Shown here: in pieces, positions 25,688-61,377 of the stretch
How the letters are laid out: every line of letters starts with the position of its first letter
How positions within the stretch are numbered: the stretch's first letter is position 1
From: Rhodohalobacter halophilus
GTDB taxonomy: Bacteria; Bacteroidota; Rhodothermia; Balneolales; Balneolaceae
Assembly: GCF_001715195.1 (NCBI RefSeq)
Contig: NZ_MDWE01000002.1
Span: 1-64,000 of the forward strand
Length of the DNA: 64,000 nucleotides
Direction of reading: 5' to 3'
Made by a program: the position numbers and the translations under genes
Notes under the pieces: generated by a model
Seen by the model: only the letters and a program-made list of their open reading frames with translations
What the model was told of the DNA's origin: nothing
The model's database searches: none

Positions 25688-25756
25688 CAACCACCCCTGC
25701 CCTCCGGACGAGACCTCGGAAGGCGGGCCTGGCCCCTCCTTGAGAAGGAGGGGAAA
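25688..25756. repeat. Hairpin repeat of the DUF559-associated family, with an insertion
   Basis: The stretch begins CAACCACCCCTGCCCT and ends CCCCTCCTTGAGAAGGAGGG. It matches the hairpin repeats found throughout 41-50 kb, with about 30 extra bases in the middle that themselves form a GC-rich inverted repeat. It lies just downstream of the Rep gene's stop and may serve as its terminator. Confidence 0.65.
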
Positions 25757-41296: not shown

Positions 41297-41648
41297 AACT
41301 GATATATTTGATTTAGCATTTTAATGTTCACCGCAGTGGTGCTGGGAACGCGGAGGATTGTTCGAAAACCTGTCAGCGGTTAAGTTTGAGATCGAATTTC
41401 AACATTCGCAAAATCCCCTCCTTATGAAGATCCTGTCCCGAAAAGTATCGGAAAGGGTCCAGGGGTGGTTGGATCGGAATTTCTTCCTCCAAAAAAACAT
41501 AAAAAATAAACTCTATCTGTTTGAACCACCCCTTAATCCCCTCCTTGGAAAGGAGGGGAAGGTTTGTTGCACAATAAGTTATTTGATAATTCAAACCCAC
41601 AACTCCCACTGCGGCTCTGCGGTGATCTTTACAACCTTTTCGAAATCA
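41297..41648. repeat. Intergenic repeats between two propeller genes
   Basis: Contains a copy of the DUF559-family hairpin (AACCACCCCTTAATCCCCTC onward at 41524-41560, with CCTTGGAAAGG as loop). It also has two pieces of a second dispersed repeat: GCAGTGGTGCTGGGAACGCG at 41333 and CACTGCGGCTCTGCGGTG near 41608. No gene seen. Confidence 0.6.
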
Positions 41649-43080: not shown

Positions 43081-46000
43081 TTAATCTCCGCGGTTACTGC
43101 GGCTCTGCGGTGAAACTTGTTTTTTATCTTTCTCCCAGACTCCCATCAACAGTAAAATGAGTGTCAAACTCGTGCCGAGGCCCCAGATGACTACCACAGC
43201 CAGGTCGGTCCAGAAATCGTTACTTCCGAACAGGATCAGCGGAACCAGTCCGCCCATGGTGGTGAGGGAGGTGATCATCACGGTTCTCATCTTATTACGA
43301 TACACCCGCACCCAGCTTCTCAAACCGTGAATATTCAGTGACCGGCATCGCTGCTTTTCATGGATCAGCAGTATGGAGTTATTCACCACCACCCCGACGG
43401 CCAGAAGCGTTCCGGCAATGGCACCCTGGTCAAAATTGATATCGTGCCAGAGGGCGCCGGCCATCACCCCGATAAGACTGAGCGGAATTGCCAATAGCAC
43501 CACCAGCGGATCTTTCCAGCTTTCGAGCAGTGCCGACACAATCATCCAAACGCTCAGAATGGTAAGCAGAAAGAGTAACAGATAGTTATCAAACTGATCG
43601 CTTTGGCCCCATGAGAAAAATCCTCCGCCAAACTGAATGGACGCTCCCACCGGAACGGGAACCTCATCCAGCACCGACTCGATAAAGTTGTTGGCCAGGC
43701 GGGGCGGTCCCAGAAAATCGACCCGAAGTGTTCGGCTGTAGGATTGATCTTCCCGAATGATCTGATTCATCGTACGCTCGCGGGTCAAATCGGCAATTTC
43801 ATTGATCTTAAACAGCCGGTTATTTGAGCGGCGCGCCTGCTCCAGAAAATCCTCCTCGTACTGCGTTTGTGCAATATTGGCTCCAATCAAATACATTCGC
43901 TCCCCCTCCAGCTCTACCTGTCCACGAATGTTGGTTGGGTTTACATCGAGCTGAATGGCGTCAAGAACCGAACGGCGGTCCAGATCTTTCATTGCCATCA
44001 GCTCTTCATCCAGATTCAGCACATATTGAAACAGATCATTAGCACCCCAGCCCACGCTGTGAATATCCACCTCCTGCACACGCGGATTCCGTTTCATCCG
44101 GGCGGCAATATCCTCAGCCAGGAGAAGCAGTTCATCATAGGAAAATCCGTGAAGCGTGATGCGCTGTCCCGAAACACCGCCGCCAAAACCGGTACTGTGT
44201 CCGTCCCCAAGTCCGCTAACCGATATCCCCGAATTGCCGGTTTGTGATGCCAGATATATCGCCTCCCCGTAGTATTGATAGGGTTCATTCTCAAACAGGT
44301 ATTCATCTTTGATAATAAACTGAAGTCTTGCACCGGAATATTCGGAGATATCCGTTTCAAAATACTCAAAAGCCTCAGCATAGGGAATAGCAAGTAATTC
44401 AAAACTCCGGGCCATCTTATTGATCTCATCCAGGGGGGTTCCCTGCGGGGTGCGGATGTTAATAAAAATCCTCTCCTGCTGTCGTCTGCCCCACGGTGTT
44501 CCGAAATAGGTCTCATTAAAAAACTTGTAGGTCAGTCCGCCAATTTTCGGATCAATCTCGCTACGATTATCAAAATAGGTGCGGGTGATCTCCGGCCAGT
44601 TTGTGTCATCCCAGTCGGGTTCCTCGATAGCAAACAACGGAATTCCGAAAAGAGCGAGCAGCCCGATATAAAAGACCCATCGGAATTTGTGCCGCCAGTA
44701 AAACGTCCGATGAAGCATGCGGTCGATCCATCGGCTCACCTTTTTCTTCAGCGACTTCTCCTCTTTTTTGATCGCTGAGGGCACCAGCCAGATCAGCGAG
44801 TAGGGAATCCAGGTGAGGGCGATCAGCACGGAACACATCAGCGTCAACGTGAGCGCCACGGCCAGCGGCACAAGAAATAGCTGAAGCTCCTCCATGGCAA
44901 AGAAGAGCGGTATGAAAATTCCCACGGTGGTGAGTGTACTTCCAAAAACAGGCACAAGCGTGTAGGGTAGCTCCTTGCGAACGTGCTCAATCCGTTCATC
45001 CCTACCCGATGGAAGTTTTGGGTTGAGCTGTTCAAACACTACAACGGCGTTATCGATAATCATTCCCAGGGCAACCGTCAGCCCGGCCAGTGTGAGCACA
45101 TTCAGCGTGTAATCGATAAAAAAGAGGATAGAGAGGCTCATCATCAAGGAGAAGACAATGCTTCCCAGAATCACAAACGGGGCACGAAACCTGCGGATGA
45201 AGAGCATCAGAATCACAAACACAAACAGAAGGCTGAAGGCCGACTGATACTGAAGATCCCCGAACTGCTCCCGCAGGTCCTCGGTCGAATCGCGCTCAAG
45301 CTGAATGGTGATATCATCGGGCAGAACGGATTGAATGCGTTCCATTTCCGATCTCATCTGCTCGCCCAGTTTCATGGCATCGGACCCGCTCTCCCGTACA
45401 AAAATCATGGTGAGGGCCGGTTTACCGTTCAGGCGCTTCAGGCTTTTCACGGGATAATCCTCAATCTCCACTCTTGCGATATCCCCAAGAACTACCTGAC
45501 GGGAGCTGTTCGGGACCGTAATTTTCATTTTTCGAATATCCTCAACCGATTCGAACTGTGGAGGAATCAGCATGCTGAGCCGGTTGTGGCTCTGTTCGAT
45601 AAAACCGCTCGATCTCCAGGTAAGACGGTCGCGAATCTGCATCAGGATCTGATCGGAGTTGAATCCATACTGCTCCAGGATTCGCGTGTCGAACCGAACG
45701 GTAAGGGCGGGATCTTCCGCTCCCTGGATGTCAATATCGGCCAGCCCCTCGAACCCCAAAAGCGGGAGCCGAATCTGCTGCATGGCAAACCGGTAGAGCT
45801 CCCTCGACGATCTCTCCCCGCTGATGGACCACGCCATGAAGGTCTCCTGCTCCTGAAGCTCCTGTGGAATGGATCGGCTGATGTTGGGCTGACGCACCTG
45901 GGGCGGAAATTCATCCTGCAGGCCGTAGAGATACTCCTGAAGCTCCAGAACCCTGTATTCGACGGGTGTATTCTGCTCAAACGTGATGGTTGTACTAGAC

Positions 46001-46254
46001 CGTCCTTCCTGGGAGACCGACCGAATCCGTTCTACATTCCGCAACCGGGTAGCCACTGACTCCACCCTGCGGGTAATCTCCTGCTCCATCACTTCCGGTG
46101 AGGTGCTGCCCCAGCCGTAGCTCACTGTAACCGACGGCAGCCGAAGCTCCGGGGCCATCTCCATAGGAATGTTCATCCACGCAACAATCCCTACCACAGC
46201 AATAAGCATGTAGCTAAGCGAGATGAAATATTTTCGACGGAAGATTTCGCGCAT
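43081..46254 (-). CDS. RND efflux permease, first of two
   Basis: 1057 aa, full length for the AcrB/MdtB superfamily. Has the N-terminal TM1 (YFISLSYMLIAVVGIVAW), the docking/porter domain, the TM4 motif LTLAGLTVALGMIIDNAVVVFEQ, and the second-half repeat VGVVVNNSILLIHEK. The TM4 acidic pair DD of AcrB is Asp-Asn here. The proton-driven trimer would export drugs, lipids or peptides with the HlyD-type adaptor and a TolC-like channel, which is not in the window. The C-terminus runs into a short repeat (last residues SRSNRGD). Separated from the adaptor by repeats and a DUF559 gene. Confidence 0.92.
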   Translation of the reverse strand: MREIFRRKYFISLSYMLIAVVGIVAWMNIPMEMAPELRLPSVTVSYGWGSTSPEVMEQEITRRVESVATRLRNVERIRSVSQEGRSSTTITFEQNTPVEYRVLELQEYLYGLQDEFPPQVRQPNISRSIPQELQEQETFMAWSISGERSSRELYRFAMQQIRLPLLGFEGLADIDIQGAEDPALTVRFDTRILEQYGFNSDQILMQIRDRLTWRSSGFIEQSHNRLSMLIPPQFESVEDIRKMKITVPNSSRQVVLGDIARVEIEDYPVKSLKRLNGKPALTMIFVRESGSDAMKLGEQMRSEMERIQSVLPDDITIQLERDSTEDLREQFGDLQYQSAFSLLFVFVILMLFIRRFRAPFVILGSIVFSLMMSLSILFFIDYTLNVLTLAGLTVALGMIIDNAVVVFEQLNPKLPSGRDERIEHVRKELPYTLVPVFGSTLTTVGIFIPLFFAMEELQLFLVPLAVALTLTLMCSVLIALTWIPYSLIWLVPSAIKKEEKSLKKKVSRWIDRMLHRTFYWRHKFRWVFYIGLLALFGIPLFAIEEPDWDDTNWPEITRTYFDNRSEIDPKIGGLTYKFFNETYFGTPWGRRQQERIFINIRTPQGTPLDEINKMARSFELLAIPYAEAFEYFETDISEYSGARLQFIIKDEYLFENEPYQYYGEAIYLASQTGNSGISVSGLGDGHSTGFGGGVSGQRITLHGFSYDELLLLAEDIAARMKRNPRVQEVDIHSVGWGANDLFQYVLNLDEELMAMKDLDRRSVLDAIQLDVNPTNIRGQVELEGERMYLIGANIAQTQYEEDFLEQARRSNNRLFKINEIADLTRERTMNQIIREDQSYSRTLRVDFLGPPRLANNFIESVLDEVPVPVGASIQFGGGFFSWGQSDQFDNYLLLFLLTILSVWMIVSALLESWKDPLVVLLAIPLSLIGVMAGALWHDINFDQGAIAGTLLAVGVVVNNSILLIHEKQRCRSLNIHGLRSWVRVYRNKMRTVMITSLTTMGGLVPLILFGSNDFWTDLAVVVIWGLGTSLTLILLLMGVWEKDKKQVSPQSRSNRGD

Positions 46255-46311
46255 ATTATTAGGTGAAAAGGCAAAAGTGAAAAATTACATCAACCTGTTT
46301 CAGGCACCAAC

Positions 46312-46548
46312 ACTCCCCTCTTTTTTAAGGAGGGGCTGGGGGTGGTTCAATCAATCATTTCCATTCTGTTCGATTTTAAATTCATAGGCACGGTCGTTTT
46401 GATTTTTTAAACATTTATCTGAGAATTGGCTTTTTTAAGTATTCACGATTTATCCAAATATCTTACTGTAAAATCATAACTCATCTATCTGATTCAAATC
46501 CTCTACACTCAACCACCCCTTAATCCCCTCCTTGCGAAGGAGGGGGAA
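46312..46548. mobile_element. Miniature hairpin-bounded element with a DUF559 3'-end relic
   Basis: Left hairpin ACTCCCCTCTTTTTTAAGGA onward (46312-46349, ending GGGGGTGGTTCA) and right hairpin AACCACCCCTTAATCCCCTC onward (46511-46548) are inverted copies of one another. Between them, TTTTAAATTCATAGGCACGG matches the last codons of the DUF559 genes, with the rest of the gene missing. Length 237 bp. Confidence 0.75.
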
Positions 46549-46772
46549 ATGATTTAATCAAACATCACCAAGTAATTCAAGGTTAAATTCTTAGGCACAG
46601 TCATTAGTAAATCACGTTTATTTTGATTTATAAGAGTTATTCATTCGTTTCAAAAATCAAATAGCTAATCCGTTATCAATAAATTTTGATGCTGAATATT
46701 CGTAAATCACAGTGTTAAATAAAGTTTTGCGCACTCAACCACCCCTTAATCCCCTCCTTGCGAAGGAGGGGA
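46549..46772. mobile_element. Second miniature DUF559-derived unit
   Basis: Starts at the right hairpin of the previous unit and ends with another right-type hairpin (46737-46772). Inside, GGTTAAATTCTTAGGCACAG near 46580 is again a relic of the DUF559 3' end, followed by an AATCACGTTTATTTTGATT stretch shared with sister units. Confidence 0.65.
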
Positions 46773-46782
46773 AATGGTTCAA

Positions 46783-47178
46783 TCAATAATCTTCATTTAC
46801 CTCAATCTTAAATTTACTGGCACGGTTTTTAAATACATCTTCCAAATAGAGAATGGTACTTTCGTAATCCTCTTCAAAATCAAGATTCTTAATCCTGACC
46901 AGTTTAATTCCTTCAGCTTTCAGTAATCGATCTTTTTCCAAGTCTTTCTTCACCTTCTCATGATAGTGATGGACATCACCATCAATTTCAATGGCCAGTT
47001 TTAGTTGTGGACAGTAAAAATCAATAATATAGTTTTCGATTCCGTGCTGACGTCTAACTTTAAACCCAAACATCTTTTTTCCCTTCAGCTCATTCCATAG
47101 CCGCACTTCCCACTTCGTCATGTGACCACGAAGGTACTGACGCTGCTTCTTGGTTTTCTTTGGATTTAACTTTGTCAT
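46783..47178 (-). CDS. DUF559 (Vsr-like) endonuclease-domain protein, copy 1
   Basis: 131 aa. After a basic start comes HMTKWEVRLWNELKGKKMFGFKVRRQ, then the core YIIDFYCPQLKLAIEIDGDVHH (about 53-75) and IKLVRIKNLDFEEDYESTI. Asp, Glu-x-Asp and downstream acidic residues fit the PD-(D/E)XK/Vsr fold of DUF559. The gene lies between two hairpins in inverted orientation (46737-46772 and 47210-47245), making a unit of about 509 bp. About 85 percent identical to copy 2 at 48794. Possible role: nuclease for movement of the element. Confidence 0.85.
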   Translation of the reverse strand: MTKLNPKKTKKQRQYLRGHMTKWEVRLWNELKGKKMFGFKVRRQHGIENYIIDFYCPQLKLAIEIDGDVHHYHEKVKKDLEKDRLLKAEGIKLVRIKNLDFEEDYESTILYLEDVFKNRASKFKIEVNEDY

Positions 47179-47209
47179 TGAATCAGACTATATCGCTTTT
47201 TTTAAGTTT

Positions 47210-47368
47210 CTCCCCTCCTTTTTAAGGAGGGGTTAGGGGTGGTTTAATCAATATTTTTCAATCATTTTAATTTTAAATTCTTTGGCACAGTCTTTGATAA
47301 ATCACAATTTCAAATAGAGTACTCAACACTCAACCACCCCTTAATCCCCTCCTTGCGAAGGAGGGGAA
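47210..47368. mobile_element. Miniature DUF559-derived unit, 159 bp
   Basis: Left hairpin CTCCCCTCCTTTTTAAGGAG onward (47210-47245), relic TTTTAAATTCTTTGGCACAG near 47270, then right hairpin (47331-47368). Shares its left hairpin with DUF559 copy 1. It is the shortest unit. Confidence 0.75.
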
Positions 47369-47404
47369 TTCTCGCCTATAGTTTAATATCCAGCTTTAAA
47401 CGCC

Positions 47405-48514
47405 TCACTCATCAACCTCCTCTCTTACAATCTGCCCGGACATTCGGGGGCGAACGGGTTGAAGGTGGCTGATGGCGAAGTGCCGGTCCACGGCAATGGT
47501 GTCGCCCGGTGCAACATCTTCGTGGTTGATGATGGCCCAGTCGGCCGTGGCGTATTCAGGATCTACGTAGACCCACTCCACTATTTCTCCATTCAGCTTA
47601 AACAGCAAGGTTCGACCGCCGTCCCGTTCCAGAATTGCGGATCTCGGCACCCGGGCAATTCCGGTATGCGACTCCACCCGTATCCGTCCCTCAACGGTCA
47701 TTCCCGGACGCAGTATCCGGTCCGGGTTTTCCAGTTCTACCACAATCTGCCCGGTTTTACTTTCCGAGTCCACCACAGGAGAGAGGGACCGAATCACTCC
47801 CTCTTTTCTCTCACCGGATGGAGTGGTCAGCTCGGCAACCATTCCGGTATTCAGGCGATTCAGCTCCGATTCCAGCACATCAAACCGAATTAATACCGTG
47901 GTGTCGTCAATCAGCCTGCCCAGTTCACTTCCCGAACTGATATAGGCGCCGGTGGTGATCCGTTCCTGTACGGAGAGCTCTCCTTCAAACGGAGCTTTTA
48001 TTGTGGTATATGAAAGATCCAATTCAGCACGCTCCAGAGCCAGTTCCGCTGCGGCCAGACCCGTGGTAATTCGCACCAGCCGTTCGACATTTCCGGATTG
48101 ATTCCCGCTGTCTCCATTTCTGATCTGACGCTGCCCCATCTCTATATTATAGGCCGATAGTGCCGTTTCGTACTCATTTTCTGCCTGACTCAGCTGATAC
48201 CTCCACTCCTGGTCGTCGAACTCCAGAATGGTTCCTCCCGCGTCAACCCGGTTCCCGTCTTCTAACTGGCTTTCGGTTACAAAGCCGCTGATTCTCGGCC
48301 GGATGGAAATTTCACGAATCGGTTCCACCACACCCTGGCTTTGAATGTAGATATGAAGCGGATCATCATCCGCAATCGTAAACACCACATCCGGGCGGAT
48401 CTCCACATCATCCGGCCTCTCCGGCCGCTCACGCTCTTCGGAGGAGGTGCAGGCGGGAAATATTACTATTATCATGAATATTGATAATAAGGTAACAGTA
48501 TGCTGAATTTTCAT
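47405..48514 (-). CDS. RND efflux periplasmic adaptor (HlyD/MFP lipoprotein)
   Basis: I choose the ATG at 48514 (369 aa); a GTG at 48538 would fall inside a hairpin repeat. Signal peptide with lipobox VIFPACTS. The barrel-sandwich half motifs are SIRPRISGFVTESQLEDGNRVDAGG and LDLSYTTIKAPFEGELSVQERITTG, flanking a short helical hairpin (about 105-155); then beta-barrel GMVAELTTPSGERKEG and RPGMTVEGRIRVES. It bridges inner-membrane RND permeases and an outer-membrane channel. It lies between two permease genes but is cut off from each by DUF559 and repeat DNA. Confidence 0.9.
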   Translation of the reverse strand: MKIQHTVTLLSIFMIIVIFPACTSSEERERPERPDDVEIRPDVVFTIADDDPLHIYIQSQGVVEPIREISIRPRISGFVTESQLEDGNRVDAGGTILEFDDQEWRYQLSQAENEYETALSAYNIEMGQRQIRNGDSGNQSGNVERLVRITTGLAAAELALERAELDLSYTTIKAPFEGELSVQERITTGAYISSGSELGRLIDDTTVLIRFDVLESELNRLNTGMVAELTTPSGERKEGVIRSLSPVVDSESKTGQIVVELENPDRILRPGMTVEGRIRVESHTGIARVPRSAILERDGGRTLLFKLNGEIVEWVYVDPEYATADWAIINHEDVAPGDTIAVDRHFAISHLQPVRPRMSGQIVREEVDE

Positions 48515-48536
48515 AATACGAGTTTGTTTGGTTAAC

Positions 48537-48782
48537 ACTCCCCTCCTTATTAAGGAGGGGCCAGGGGTGGTTCAGATAAATATCTAAATTCAATTCAAAT
48601 TTAAATTCTTTGGCACGATCTTTAAGAAATCGCGCTGTTTTTTAAGTAGTTCATTTGCGATTTAGCTTGTTTATTTGTTTACGCTTATCCAAAGATCTCA
48701 CTGTTAAATAATTACTCAATATTCTGAATCTAATCCTCTGCACTCAACCACCCCTTAATCCCCTCCTTGCGAAGGAGGGGAA
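48537..48782. mobile_element. Miniature DUF559-derived unit, 246 bp
   Basis: Left hairpin CTCCCCTCCTTATTAAGGAG onward (48537-48573), relic TTTAAATTCTTTGGCACGAT near 48605, and right hairpin (48745-48782). It directly abuts the start region of the adaptor gene on one side and DUF559 copy 2 on the other. Confidence 0.75.
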
Positions 48783-48793
48783 GGATGGCTCCA

Positions 48794-49189
48794 TCAATAA
48801 GCTTCATTTATCTCAATATTAAATTCTTTTGCACGCTCTTTAAAAACATCTTCCAAATAGATAATCGTGCTCTCATAATCCTCTTCAAAGTCCAAATTCT
48901 TTATTCTGATAATTTCAATTCCTTCATTTTTCAATAACAGATCTTTTTTCAAGTCTTTTTCCGCTTTCTCTTTAAAATGATGAACGTCACCGTCTATCTC
49001 TATGGCCAATCTCAATTCCGGGCAGTAGAAATCAACTATATAGTTTCCAATGCCATGCTGTCTCCTCACTTTAAACCCAAACATCTTTTTACCCTTCAGC
49101 TCATTCCACAAACGTACTTCCCACTTCGTCATGTGACCGCGAAGATACTGACGCTGCTTCTTTGTCTTTTTTGGATTTAGCTTAGTCAT
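48794..49189 (-). CDS. DUF559 (Vsr-like) endonuclease-domain protein, copy 2
   Basis: 131 aa, same length as copy 1 and identical over the first 47 residues. Changes cluster in the second half (for example KEKAEKDLKKDLLLKNEGIE). The predicted catalytic stretch YIVDFYCPELRLAIEIDGDVHH is kept, so selection probably still acts on the active site. It lies between a right hairpin (48745-48782) and a left hairpin (49242-49281), a unit of about 537 bp, the same arrangement as copy 1. Confidence 0.85.
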   Translation of the reverse strand: MTKLNPKKTKKQRQYLRGHMTKWEVRLWNELKGKKMFGFKVRRQHGIGNYIVDFYCPELRLAIEIDGDVHHFKEKAEKDLKKDLLLKNEGIEIIRIKNLDFEEDYESTIIYLEDVFKERAKEFNIEINEAY

Positions 49190-49241
49190 GTCATTACACG
49201 GAATCGATTTATTTTAAAAGTAAAGTGCTGAAATACCAATG

Positions 49242-49497
49242 ACTCCCCTCCTTTTTAAGGATGGGGCTGGGGGTGGTTCAAACATATCTCATCATGTACT
49301 TCAATCTTAAACTCACTAGCACGGTCTTTAATAAATCACGATTGTTTTGATTTTTTAAACGTCTATCTGCGTTTTGAATTGGTTATGAGTTCACAATTTA
49401 TCTAAACCATCTTACTGTTTTATCATTACTCAAAATTCTGAAACAAATCTTTTGTACTCAACCACCCCTTAATCCCCTCCTTGCGAAGGAGGGGAAT
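49242..49497. mobile_element. Miniature DUF559-derived unit, 256 bp
   Basis: Left hairpin GACTCCCCTCCTTTTTAAGG onward (49242-49281), relic CTTAAACTCACTAGCACGGT near 49307 and AATCACGATTGTTTTGATTT, then right hairpin (49460-49497). It lies 18 bp from the end of the second RND permease gene, so its hairpin may also end that transcript. Confidence 0.75.
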
Positions 49498-49514
49498 TCA
49501 ATATCAAAACCTTC

Positions 49515-52500
49515 TCACGATTCACTTTTTACTTTTTCCTTCTCACTTCCAATGCCCCCTTCCATCCAGCCAAAAATGACCGGAATCAAATAGAGGGTTA
49601 AAATGGTGCTGGTGATCATCCCGCCCATCAGGGCCAGGGCGAGTGACTGCCTGAAGGCGTAGCCCTCGCCGAAGGGGATCAGCATGGGAACAAGGCCTAA
49701 AATGGTTGTCACACTGGTCATCACGACGGGACGGAACCGGTGCTTGCCGGCCAGTTCAATCGCCTTACGGAGATCTCCGGTATCGGCCAGGTATCGTCGC
49801 ATAAAATCTACTTTCAATATGGAGTCATTCACGGCAATTCCGGTCAGAATCAACACCCCCATGAACGACATCGCATTGAGCCCGGTGCCGGTAACCCACA
49901 TGATCAGCAGCGAGCCCACCCAGGCAAACGGCACAGCCAGGATAATGATCAGCGGATATTTCAGGTTTTCGAACTGAACCGACAGGATGATATAGATAAT
50001 CAGGATACTGAGCAGCAGCAGTTTGCCCATATCCAGCATCAGTCCCTGCACCATCAGCGCATTCCCGGCCACCTGCACCTCCTGACCGGTCGACTGCATA
50101 AAATCCCGCATGGTGTCCATCGTCTTCCCGCGATTCCACCACCAGTCCGCCAGATCCCAGTTCGCGACAAAACTGAGTACAGGTGTCTGATCCACCCGTT
50201 CAAGCTGCTCCAGTTCGGCGGCCCGCTCAATCTCGGCGATATAGCTGAGTGGAATTTCCCGGCTTCCCATTCTCAGGGTGATCTCCTCCGGTGCATAAAT
50301 CTGAGACTGACTTCCCATCAATCGGATGGCGATCCGTTCATCCTCCCGGCTCCAGTCGGTCACAAAACTGCCGCGTGTGATCGACTCCAGGTATCGAATG
50401 ACATCCTGTTCCAGTATTCCGAGCTGCAGCATCCGGTCTGTTCGAAATCTCAGATTCCAGGTATCCACCTCCTGCTCATACTGTTTGCGAAACTCAACGG
50501 GCATACCCGCTTCATTTAATCTATTCTTCAATTCGGCAGACATGCGCTCACTTTCTGCACGATTCATTCCAATCATCCGGAACAGTACGGGCGGCTGATC
50601 CGCCCCAATCAGCGCGCTCCAGCTTTGGGTGGATGCCACCCGTTCCACCGACCATCCCGGAAAATCCAGATCAAACTGCTCCATCCTCTCTCTTACCCTG
50701 TCCGCTTCGTTTTGACCGTTAACCGGCACAGAAACGGTAAACTTATTCAGGCCTTCGCGGGCCAGGTTGGCAAGATTCGACTGATCGGTAAAACCGCCCT
50801 CAACCTGAATATTTTCTCCACCCAGGCCGTCAGACTGTAGCCGGACCCGAAGCGCATCCGCAGCCTGCATGGTGGAAGTAAGCGATGTGTTCCCCGGCAG
50901 CTGCACGCGGTAGGTAACCAGGGACGGCTCATCTTCAGGAAGCATATTTTTGGGAACCACCATAAACGCATAGACAGAAACAGCGATCAAAACCGTGGCC
51001 AGGGCCACTACGGGAGCGGGACGTTTCAGCACGCTCTGCAGGGTCGACTCATAACGATCCAGCAGTTTATTGAAAAAGGGTCTTGTATTTAGCTGACCGT
51101 CACCCTCGTTATCCAGGTTTTTCCCGGCTCTGCGTTCCAGAATCTGAACCACCAGAACCGGCAGAATAATGAGCGCTACAAACAGGGAAGCCAGCAGACT
51201 GATCGAAAGCGTATAGGCCTGATCCTGGAAAAAAGCTCCCTCAAATCCGCCCAGAAAAATCAGGGGCAGAAAAACGGATATGGTTGTAAACGTGGAGGCC
51301 GTGACCGCAAGGGCGATCTCCTTGGTTCCGGCTCTTGCCGCATGGTTTACCGACTTTGTGAGCGGCATGTGCCGGTTGATGTTCTCGAGCACCACAATCG
51401 CGTTATCCAGCAGCAGCCCGATCCCCAGGGTGAGTCCGCTCAACGATACAATGTTGAGCTGAATCCCGGAGATGAACATCACAAAGAAGGTGATAAAGAT
51501 AGAGACGGGAATGGCCACCCCGACTGTAAAGGGTGTGCGAACATCATTCAGAAAAGTAAACAAAACAAAAAAGGCAAGTACTCCTCCGAAAAGAAGGGTC
51601 TGCAGAAGGTTCGCGACTGCTTTGCGAATAAACGTGGCGTCCTCCCTAAGCACCTCAATGCTGATATTCGGGTAGAGCTCGCGCATCTCCTCCACCAGGG
51701 GCATTAGTGTGTCGTAGACCTCCACGGTGTTGCTTCCATACTCTTTTTTTACCAGAAGGTTGAGTACCCGCTCCCCGTCGAGCGTGGCGAATGAGACCGG
51801 GTCGGTCTCCTGCAGGGAGATCTCCGCAATTTCACCCAGGGTGAGAATCCGCCCCATACCCAGGCGGGTGAGCGGCACATTCTCAAGGTCTTCCAGTTCG
51901 TTAACGCGGCTCTCAATCTTCACCGAATAGCGATACCAGCCATCGCGCAGCTCTCCGCTGGAAGTGAAAATATTGGCATCCCGCACCAGGCTCTGCACCC
52001 GGCTCAGACTCAACCCGTAGCGGTCGATTTCGCGTGGGAGATAGCGGATCTGCACCTCAGGTTCCACTGCACCCACCGATACAACCTGCGCAATGCCCTC
52101 GGCCTGCTCCAGCCTACGCGACAGTACCTGCTCTGCCCAGCGCTTAAGCGCAAGGCGGGTTTCAAACTCTTCGTTGGGGCGATCTTTAGACGTAACGGCA
52201 AGCACGGCAATCGGCTCGTCGGCGGTGGTGTTGAAAATGAGCTGCGGACGCGACGCCTGCTCCGGCATGATGTACTGCACCTGGTCCAGCTTCTCCCTCA
52301 CATTCAGAAATGCGAGATCCATGTTGTGCCCCCACCGGAAATTGAGGTAGATCACGCTCTGCCCCTGTCGTGCAAACCCGTGCACACTGTCGATGCCCGG
52401 AACCGTGCTCAATACCGCTTCCAGGCGCTCATTAATCCGGCCCTCCACCTCTCGCGGCGACGCCCCCTGCCAGTCGGTGCGCACCACCAGGTTGGGAGAG

Positions 52501-52607
52501 TCCACATCGGGAAGCAGATCTACCGAAAGTTCATTCAGTGCCAGGCTGCCGAAGATAAACGCAGCCAGGATCAGGATGATCGCAGTAATGGGACGGTTAA
52601 GCAGCAA
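49515..52607 (-). CDS. RND efflux permease, second of two
   Basis: 1030 aa. Motifs: TM1 region NRPITAIILILAAFIFGSLA, porter DSPNLVVRTDWQGASPREVE, TM4 LSGLTLGIGLLLDNAIVVLE (single Asp followed by Asn), and TM10-11 MGVLILTGIAVNDSILKVDF. Distinct from the 43081 permease, so the two may form a mixed trimer or work separately with the adaptor. No ATG lies in frame between the upstream TAA (52614-52616) and the first motif; TTG at 52607 is the only likely start, and the usual 10-15 residues before NRPITA are missing. The N-terminus may have been cut by rearrangement (compare 54940-55191). Confidence 0.88.
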   Translation of the reverse strand: MLLNRPITAIILILAAFIFGSLALNELSVDLLPDVDSPNLVVRTDWQGASPREVEGRINERLEAVLSTVPGIDSVHGFARQGQSVIYLNFRWGHNMDLAFLNVREKLDQVQYIMPEQASRPQLIFNTTADEPIAVLAVTSKDRPNEEFETRLALKRWAEQVLSRRLEQAEGIAQVVSVGAVEPEVQIRYLPREIDRYGLSLSRVQSLVRDANIFTSSGELRDGWYRYSVKIESRVNELEDLENVPLTRLGMGRILTLGEIAEISLQETDPVSFATLDGERVLNLLVKKEYGSNTVEVYDTLMPLVEEMRELYPNISIEVLREDATFIRKAVANLLQTLLFGGVLAFFVLFTFLNDVRTPFTVGVAIPVSIFITFFVMFISGIQLNIVSLSGLTLGIGLLLDNAIVVLENINRHMPLTKSVNHAARAGTKEIALAVTASTFTTISVFLPLIFLGGFEGAFFQDQAYTLSISLLASLFVALIILPVLVVQILERRAGKNLDNEGDGQLNTRPFFNKLLDRYESTLQSVLKRPAPVVALATVLIAVSVYAFMVVPKNMLPEDEPSLVTYRVQLPGNTSLTSTMQAADALRVRLQSDGLGGENIQVEGGFTDQSNLANLAREGLNKFTVSVPVNGQNEADRVRERMEQFDLDFPGWSVERVASTQSWSALIGADQPPVLFRMIGMNRAESERMSAELKNRLNEAGMPVEFRKQYEQEVDTWNLRFRTDRMLQLGILEQDVIRYLESITRGSFVTDWSREDERIAIRLMGSQSQIYAPEEITLRMGSREIPLSYIAEIERAAELEQLERVDQTPVLSFVANWDLADWWWNRGKTMDTMRDFMQSTGQEVQVAGNALMVQGLMLDMGKLLLLSILIIYIILSVQFENLKYPLIIILAVPFAWVGSLLIMWVTGTGLNAMSFMGVLILTGIAVNDSILKVDFMRRYLADTGDLRKAIELAGKHRFRPVVMTSVTTILGLVPMLIPFGEGYAFRQSLALALMGGMITSTILTLYLIPVIFGWMEGGIGSEKEKVKSES

Positions 52608-60884: not shown

Positions 60885-61377
60885 AATTATCCTCTTTACA
60901 TTATATCCAATTTCTCCCACGGATTAATCCACGAGACGGGCATGAATGTTTAATCCCTAAGGAATTATAATGAAAATATTTAGATCCTAAACCCATATTA
61001 TTTTGTGGGATGAGGTTTAATTATTTTTTAGTATGTTGAGGTGATTTGAGATTATTTTGTTTTTTTTTGGAGTGGTGACAAAAATAAAATTAGCCGGTTT
61101 TAGCAGTAAATCATCCCCCAACCCCTTATTCAGACCGGAGACATCCTTTATAGGTGTTCGGAGACATGGTTTACACTTTTATCGCATGATGTTAATTTGA
61201 TTTAGATGAATTGTCATTTACTGCAAAAAGATTACCCCCCTCACTCCCCCCTTGTTAGGGAGGAATTATTATTACCCTACACATACTTTGAGTTCTGAAA
61301 AATCTCTGTGGCCTTCCGTGGTTTCGTTTCACGTCAAATGATGAGATTGGCAAAGTTGTAGTAATTCAAACTCATCA
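60885..61377. repeat. Duplicated upstream region of the peptide gene
   Basis: Most of 60890-61110 is closely similar to 63025-63240: shared blocks include CCAATTTCTCCCAC, GTTTAATCCCTAAG, TAATGAAAATATTTA and GGGATGAGGTTTAATTATTT. It must hold the peptide promoter. Further left, 61300-61330 carries the dispersed repeat CTGTGGCCTTCCGTGGTTTC, and 61230-61265 a decayed hairpin-family copy (CTCCCCCCTTGTTAGGGAGG). No gene seen. Confidence 0.7.

Follow-up and report, generated by a model that had tools for sequence, protein, structure and literature searches.

The intrastrand triplex motif TM_ECO, described in E. coli and in over 260 genomes, carries TTA and CCG second loops and has been linked to genome instability, and no mobility genes were found near it (Holder et al. 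2015, PMC4666352). The agent that spreads these repeats was left unnamed. Here, we analysed a 64,000-nucleotide stretch of Rhodohalobacter halophilus (Balneolaceae) DNA (contig NZ_MDWE01000002.1, positions 1 to 64,000; this whole stretch is called the window), in which motifs of this layout bracket two DUF559 nuclease genes and a set of miniature units. As in TM_ECO, a C-rich arm, a G-rich arm, a third G-rich strand of about 9 nt and a short second loop are present at the element ends in the window; the motifs pair in inverted orientation, type A having a TTA and type B a CCG loop. Both loop types occur in Balneolaceae, and the motifs are intergenic and strain-variable. Unlike in the TM_ECO report, DUF559 lies inside or beside the motifs, including ycjD in E. 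coli, and the Balneolaceae stem sequences differ. We consider it probable, though by no means assured, that stand-alone DUF559 genes are the coding form of widespread, very small mobile elements with inverted triplex ends and gene-less derivatives, spread by homing-like copying that DUF559 drives.

Several described systems resemble these elements in part. Repetitive extragenic palindromic (REP) sequences, their hairpin-forming doublets (REPINs) and the REP-associated tyrosine transposases (RAYTs) share with them short tagged hairpins in inverted pairs, an intergenic location, the absence of an obvious target-site duplication (TSD), and amplification where one or a few cognate nuclease genes are present; unlike RAYT, however, the enzyme has a Vsr/PD-(D/E)XK fold and not an HUH/Y1 fold, its gene lies within the paired ends, and the hairpin tag mirrors the stem as a third strand (GGGGTGGTT or the corresponding sequence for another stem) rather than being GTAG or CGTC. 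The EDxHD homing endonucleases, such as I-Bth0305I, have a Vsr-like fold and conserved E, D, H and D residues to which the invariant ones of DUF559 would correspond, and we propose a similar selfish copying by cut and repair; in contrast to the I-Bth0305I type, the DUF559 genes sit in no intron or intein, have structured inverted ends and miniatures, and occur at many unrelated genes and intergenic sites. Like miniature inverted-repeat transposable elements (MITEs), the non-autonomous copies are 100–250 bp long, have inverted ends and are internally deleted while sharing the ends of the autonomous form, but they differ in having no classical transposase, no TSD and triplex-capable ends. Rickettsia palindromic elements are palindromic repeats that lie in frame in conserved protein genes and are translated; we know of no DUF559-type gene in them, and the DUF559 ends instead carry the triplex motif.

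In the window, three minus-strand genes of resistance-nodulation-division (RND) efflux type by inspection (43081–46254, 47405–48538 and 49515–52607) form one operon, and its two gaps (46255–47404 and 48539–49514) house both DUF559 genes, nine hairpins and five miniature units (Table 1). Matches to the CCCCTCCTTnnnAAGGAGGGG hairpin with at most three mismatches numbered 11 in the window against 0.02 expected, nine of them within 46315–49494. The two DUF559 genes were the only ones found in the whole genome, and their dN/dS (ratio of nonsynonymous to synonymous substitution rates) of 0.06–0.08, with mostly silent differences, indicates that both are under purifying selection. An earlier reading of the sequence alone had placed each gene between a right-type and a left-type hairpin, in units of about 509 and 537 bp, and these brackets are indeed present. 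It had also reported at least four short units keeping the last DUF559 codons; such units exist and number five, and all five are homologous to the last DUF559 codons and stop region (alignment scores of 46–70, compared with a best of 28 among 300 random window pieces). With the same ends and DUF559 codons, these five support the proposed relation between an autonomous element and internally deleted partners.

The hairpins themselves were correctly described, but the sequence-only reading overlooked the mirrored tag that completes the triplex motif. Each motif comprises CCCCTCCTT, a purine arm AAGGAGGGG and a 9-nt tag GGGGTGGTT, which mirrors the stem at every complete hairpin, lies 2–5 nt from the hairpin foot and, when reversed, agrees with AAGGAGGGG at each position (G on G, T on A). 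The complete ends in the window are predicted to form 9–10 triads each in the layout of a purine-motif intrastrand triplex, and no full triplex motif was found in shuffled windows. Computed folding of the duplex hairpin gave z values of −3.5 to −4.3, which concern the duplex part alone, the triplex being predicted from sequence. Among 62 Balneolaceae ends, the second loop was CCG in 15 and ATTAA or ATTTA in 19. Separately, the hairpin loops of these 62 ends were strongly strand-polar (TCC in 16, CGC in 15, no GGA or GCG), which suggests that the hairpin is not functionally symmetric. Inversion of the hairpin as a marker of cruciform cutting, raised by a loop that flips at one orthologous site, was rejected given this overall polarity.

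We then compared DUF559 loci gathered from the genus, the family, Flavobacteriaceae, Oscillospiraceae and plasmid records. Inverted triplex-type ends surrounded stand-alone DUF559 genes in Balneolota, Bacteroidota, Bacillota and Pseudomonadota. A flank inverted-repeat score of at least 30 was obtained at 68 of the 109 stand-alone loci with enough flank, and at 0 of 102 distant flanks taken 0.6–1 kb away (p = 1e-19). Triplex density was 1.63 per kb near DUF559, 0.20 per kb far from it and 0 in shuffles; with this detector, which requires a tag, the nearest tag faced the gene in 43 of 50 cases 5′ of it and in 31 of 43 cases 3′ of it. Because of that requirement, hairpins for the stem-tag test were picked blind to tags: the sequence beyond the hairpin mirrored its own stem at 8 of 8 positions in 52%, a rate that fell to 2.9% against stems of another type and to 0.6% for scrambled sequence. 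This stem-tag covariation spans 28 stem types, some of which contain a further small hairpin within the loop. Furthermore, end type tracks the DUF559 tree (25 changes against 39.4 in shuffles, with 0 of 200 shuffles as low), and a single genus contains several DUF559 clades, each with different ends. At one locus, on Sinorhizobium meliloti pSymB (L117), near-perfect 114-bp inverted repeats with two hairpins each flank DUF559.

The dispersed hairpins follow the gene. This genome contains 30 perfect hairpins (46 at up to two mismatches), and the control pattern does not occur in it. Among 28 genomes of the genus, the 11 that have a close DUF559 showed a median of 29 perfect hairpins and the other 17 a median of 0 (p = 2.6e-5). 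The equal spread of hairpins in genomes lacking DUF559, an outcome that the sequence-only reading had named as speaking against it, is thus not seen, with a few genomes lacking the cognate gene as partial exceptions (below). DUF559 elements measure about 0.45–0.7 kb, and the dispersed hairpin pairs, 100–250 bp long, include some with the last DUF559 codons. In this survey, one record titled Chitinophagaceae (L042, LKNA01000050.1) matches a contig of G044, which is listed in the same genus as the window genome, and the label of the record looks wrong.

Orthologous sites revealed gain or loss of units. This genome (G000) and G044, at 85–91% DNA identity, have the same two operon gaps with unequal unit numbers, the joins falling at the motifs. 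At other orthologous sites in the genus, relatives were without the element or had one of another family; intergenic presence or absence is clear, with exact borders blurred by divergence. Genus-wide, both operon gaps are repeatedly occupied by DUF559 elements of at least two families (L096–L106; for example G062, with TCCCCCCT ends). One element, L156 in G042, orthologous to G000:C28:68288, is chimeric: one of its ends belongs to another family (CCCCTCTTGAGAGGGG) and the other to this one, which looks like the conversion of a single end.

Elements also occupy protein genes. The DUF559 gene, together with its ends, is inserted in frame in leucyl-tRNA synthetase (LeuS), methionine synthase (MetH), RecG, PheT and an Eco57I-type methylase, or is fused to HemF or HemD (the cases other than LeuS being L193–L196, L197, L229, L083, L234, L239, L198, L071, L072 and L192), and the end motif is translated in the host proteins (for example as HPPAPPSKGD). 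In Flavobacteriaceae LeuS, the in-frame elements share one site ahead of the editing domain (L230 in G156, L227, L243 and L256–L269). The G156 insert is about 620 nt long, where G183 has about 18 nt, between flanks that are 93–95% identical, and the G183 sequence at this position folds into a small hairpin, GCTCGCCTCCGGCGAGC. The empty LeuS alleles contain no triplex motif and lack the entire hairpin-gene-hairpin block, and other genomes of that genus have different inserts at the same site.

In E. coli, the DUF559 gene is ycjD, present in approximately 3362 of 5426 complete genomes; a triplex motif overlaps its 3′ end and another lies about 180 bp downstream. The inverted triplex pairs of E. 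coli have CCG and TTA second loops. Within an evenly spread sample, the median number of motif places was 16 in genomes ranked as having the ycjD site and 3 in the rest, a split that is approximate, being made by rank, and confounded with phylogroup.

Tag direction varied among loci. In the window, intact tags point outward only, and gene-facing tags are decayed (AACCATTT instead of AACCACCCC), as at the hairpin of the end at 46737–46772, which also stands directly 3′ of DUF559 copy 1; the inner tags are degenerate because neighbouring units share hairpins. Intact tags point at the gene in close relatives (for example L046, L047 and L049), and tags face the gene in 14 of the 19 loci having exactly one triplex end per side. 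At the LeuS insert borders and in the E. coli miniatures, the tags are outermost. Both layouts therefore exist, and a universal rule of tag direction was rejected. The sequence-only parsing into hairpins that bracket the gene, which puts the intact tags outward, fits the window and does not extend to the gene-facing majority.

The alignment-based AlphaFold2 (AF2) model of DUF559 copy 1 had a predicted local distance difference test (pLDDT) score of 86.9 (a single-sequence model, at 49, was discarded as too poor). Its nearest PDB matches were 3hrl, I-Bth0305I and Vsr, with Foldseek E-values of 7e-5 for I-Bth0305I (3r3p) and 0.017 for 1cw0. Residues E24, D53, H70 and D79 are invariant across the aligned DUF559 relatives and would correspond to the EDxHD motif residues.

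What these in silico comparisons show is the association of gene and ends, its generality, the stem-tag covariation, clade-specific ends, gain and loss of units, and in-frame insertion with empty sites, and on that basis they support a DUF559-encoding mobile element with non-autonomous derivatives. Our best inference is that DUF559 itself moves the element, as the sequence-only reading had proposed. At the element ends, the purine arm of a GC-rich hairpin has its mirror image in the third-strand tag next to it. DUF559, as a nuclease of Vsr/EDxHD fold, may nick or cut folded triplex or hairpin DNA at its cognate ends and at targets, after which host break repair or replication template switching would copy the element. 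Such a process would be homing-like, producing no target duplication and tending to replace hairpin-bearing sequence; the sharing of a hairpin by neighbouring units is expected if the hairpin itself is a favoured target. Enzymes of the Vsr/EDxHD fold cut DNA and are not known to rejoin the ends, so that a cut or nick at folded ends with host copying is favoured over RAYT-type strand transfer, and resemblance to I-Bth0305I and Vsr makes homing-like break-and-copy a better fit than RAYT-type transposition. The comparison with RAYT and REP through an unrelated enzyme, made in the sequence-only reading, holds as a functional likeness only.

Several observations weigh against a DUF559-driven element. 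Some genomes without a cognate DUF559 retain 6–13 hairpins (G046 has 13 and no DUF559), and 36 of 112 stand-alone DUF559 loci have no gene-facing hairpin whose tag matches at 7 or more of 8 positions. The correlation between DUF559 clade and end type could arise from physical linkage alone. The sequence-only reading had proposed a search for empty sites and target duplications; presence or absence at orthologous sites was found, but no TSD was detected at LeuS, where about 18–25 bp of target are replaced, or at 35 intergenic hairpin pairs, border repeats not exceeding those in mismatched-pair controls. The difference between filled and empty LeuS alleles is unpolarised, and may be gain or loss. 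Finally, four E. coli sites (phnK-phnL, yhjE-yhjG, tktB-ypfG and recA-recX) are allele swaps and not clean empty sites: the motif-free alleles hold REP sequences or bacterial interspersed mosaic elements (BIMEs) at three of the four (L127, L132 and L133 against L160, L134 and L137), recA-recX is an unclean replacement, and no TSD or exact border was seen. Together with LeuS, these sites suggest, as a lead, that the elements often take over the place of other hairpins.

These REP/BIME alleles, and the likeness of tagged inverted hairpins to REP/REPIN ends (PMC3116915, PMC3733652), would also suit a trans-acting HUH transposase of RAYT/TnpA-REP or IS200/IS605 type that moves the hairpins with DUF559 as passenger or helper nuclease. 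We rate this as unlikely while giving it some weight, since the miniatures descend from DUF559-bearing units, the number of cognate hairpins follows a close DUF559, and the triplex tag is unlike the GTAG/CGTC tags of known REPs. Only the DUF559 open reading frame (ORF) fits inside the elements in several phyla, though no HUH search was made in the genomes, this one included. It is rather doubtful that DUF559 is a pure homing endonuclease gene whose homing sites are pre-existing triplex repeats of separate origin, which would then not be ends. The fold match to I-Bth0305I, the placement of a DUF559 intein protein in the EDxHD homing family (PMC9403480) and the sharing of hairpins by units in arrays agree with it, but the DUF559 codons between the miniature hairpins indicate that hairpins and gene moved as one unit, and at LeuS the whole block is missing from alleles devoid of the motif.

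A host nuclease for repair or defence (very short patch (VSP) repair, or modification-dependent restriction), with nearby hairpins acting as terminators or recombination hot spots and no mobile element, has a parallel in Caulobacter, where a VSP repair role was proposed for the DUF559 protein VsrA and the SOS response of the scmA mutant, or DNA-damage signalling, needs VsrA (PMC12907096); PADLOC also gave a weak match to a methyl-directed restriction endonuclease (REase). We find this improbable in view of the ends, which in several phyla flank the gene on either side in inverted orientation, are specific to the clade and match their stems, of the in-frame hairpin-DUF559-hairpin in LeuS with empty relatives, and of several scattered copies per genome. 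Passive recombination and replication slippage between palindromes, duplicating or deleting their contents with DUF559 included, could produce the G000/G044 differences and array-shared hairpins by unequal recombination; it is scarcely credible as the whole explanation, as it cannot account for copies at unlinked sites, elements inserted in frame in conserved genes, conserved stem-tag covariation or purifying selection on DUF559, and LeuS relatives such as G188 suggest insertion of a complete unit where no prior palindrome stood. Ordinary terminators, CRISPR, integron-like arrays and an insertion sequence (IS) with a missed transposase were ruled out on anatomy.

If DUF559 drives the copying, a broader proposal follows, which we advance tentatively and hold to be possible rather than probable: a transposase-less class of mobile elements in which one Vsr/EDxHD nuclease reads intrastrand triplex ends, cuts and copies into hairpin-forming DNA, and displaces REP/BIME and other hairpins. 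It would explain the triplex repeats in hundreds of genomes, including E. coli K-12 via ycjD. The pairing of DUF559 with triplex ends speaks for a kind of very small mobile DNA that has gone unrecognised and hints at where the triplex repeats known since 2015 come from, with a likely biology that is testable in E. coli K-12; a search of the open-access literature found no paper linking DUF559 to the triplex motif. The DUF559 family is large, includes proteins of E. coli and Neisseria and has no assigned function; should DUF559 read triplex DNA, it would stand as a naturally occurring enzyme with that ability and bring new enzymology to mobile elements; if the mechanism is plain homing, the finding shrinks to a variant of the homing-endonuclease element. 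For annotation, parts of some LeuS, MetH, RecG, PheT and HemF/HemD genes are such elements translated in frame.

Table 1 Features of the DUF559 locus and related hairpins in the window.
Feature	Position	Strand	Evidence
DUF559 (PF04480) nuclease gene copy 1, 131 aa	46783..47178	-	Pfam E 1.5e-23
DUF559 nuclease gene copy 2, 131 aa, protein 84% identical to that of copy 1	48794..49189	-	Pfam E 4.9e-24
Triplex end (hairpin + tag), left type	46315..46347	+	triplex-motif match
Triplex end, right type; hairpin common to next unit	46511..46545	-	triplex-motif match; alignment to G044
Triplex end, right type	46737..46772	-	triplex-motif match
Triplex end, left type, directly 5′ of DUF559 copy 1	47212..47244	+	triplex-motif match
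Triplex end, right type	47332..47367	-	triplex-motif match
Triplex end, left type	48540..48572	+	triplex-motif match
Triplex end, right type, 3′ of DUF559 copy 2	48746..48781	-	triplex-motif match
Triplex end, left type, 5′ of DUF559 copy 2	49245..49278	+	triplex-motif match
Triplex end, right type	49460..49495	-	triplex-motif match
Miniature unit U1, DUF559 C-terminal codons kept	46315..46545		alignment score 56
Miniature unit U2, left hairpin in common with U1, DUF559 C-terminal codons kept	46546..46772		alignment score 46
Miniature unit U3, DUF559 C-terminal codons kept	47212..47367		alignment score 66
Miniature unit U4, DUF559 C-terminal codons kept	48540..48781		alignment score 50
Miniature unit U5, DUF559 C-terminal codons kept	49245..49495		alignment score 70
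Dispersed miniature element, triplex end 41524-41559(-)	41410..41559		resembles copies in this genome and in others of the genus
Solo hairpin 25733-25753, small second hairpin and CCACCCC tag before it	25691..25753		hairpin pattern match

Elsewhere in the window, at 61234–61264 on the minus strand, we observed a triplex-like motif of another type, composed of TCCTCCCT, AACA, AGGGGGGA, GTG and AGGGGGGT.

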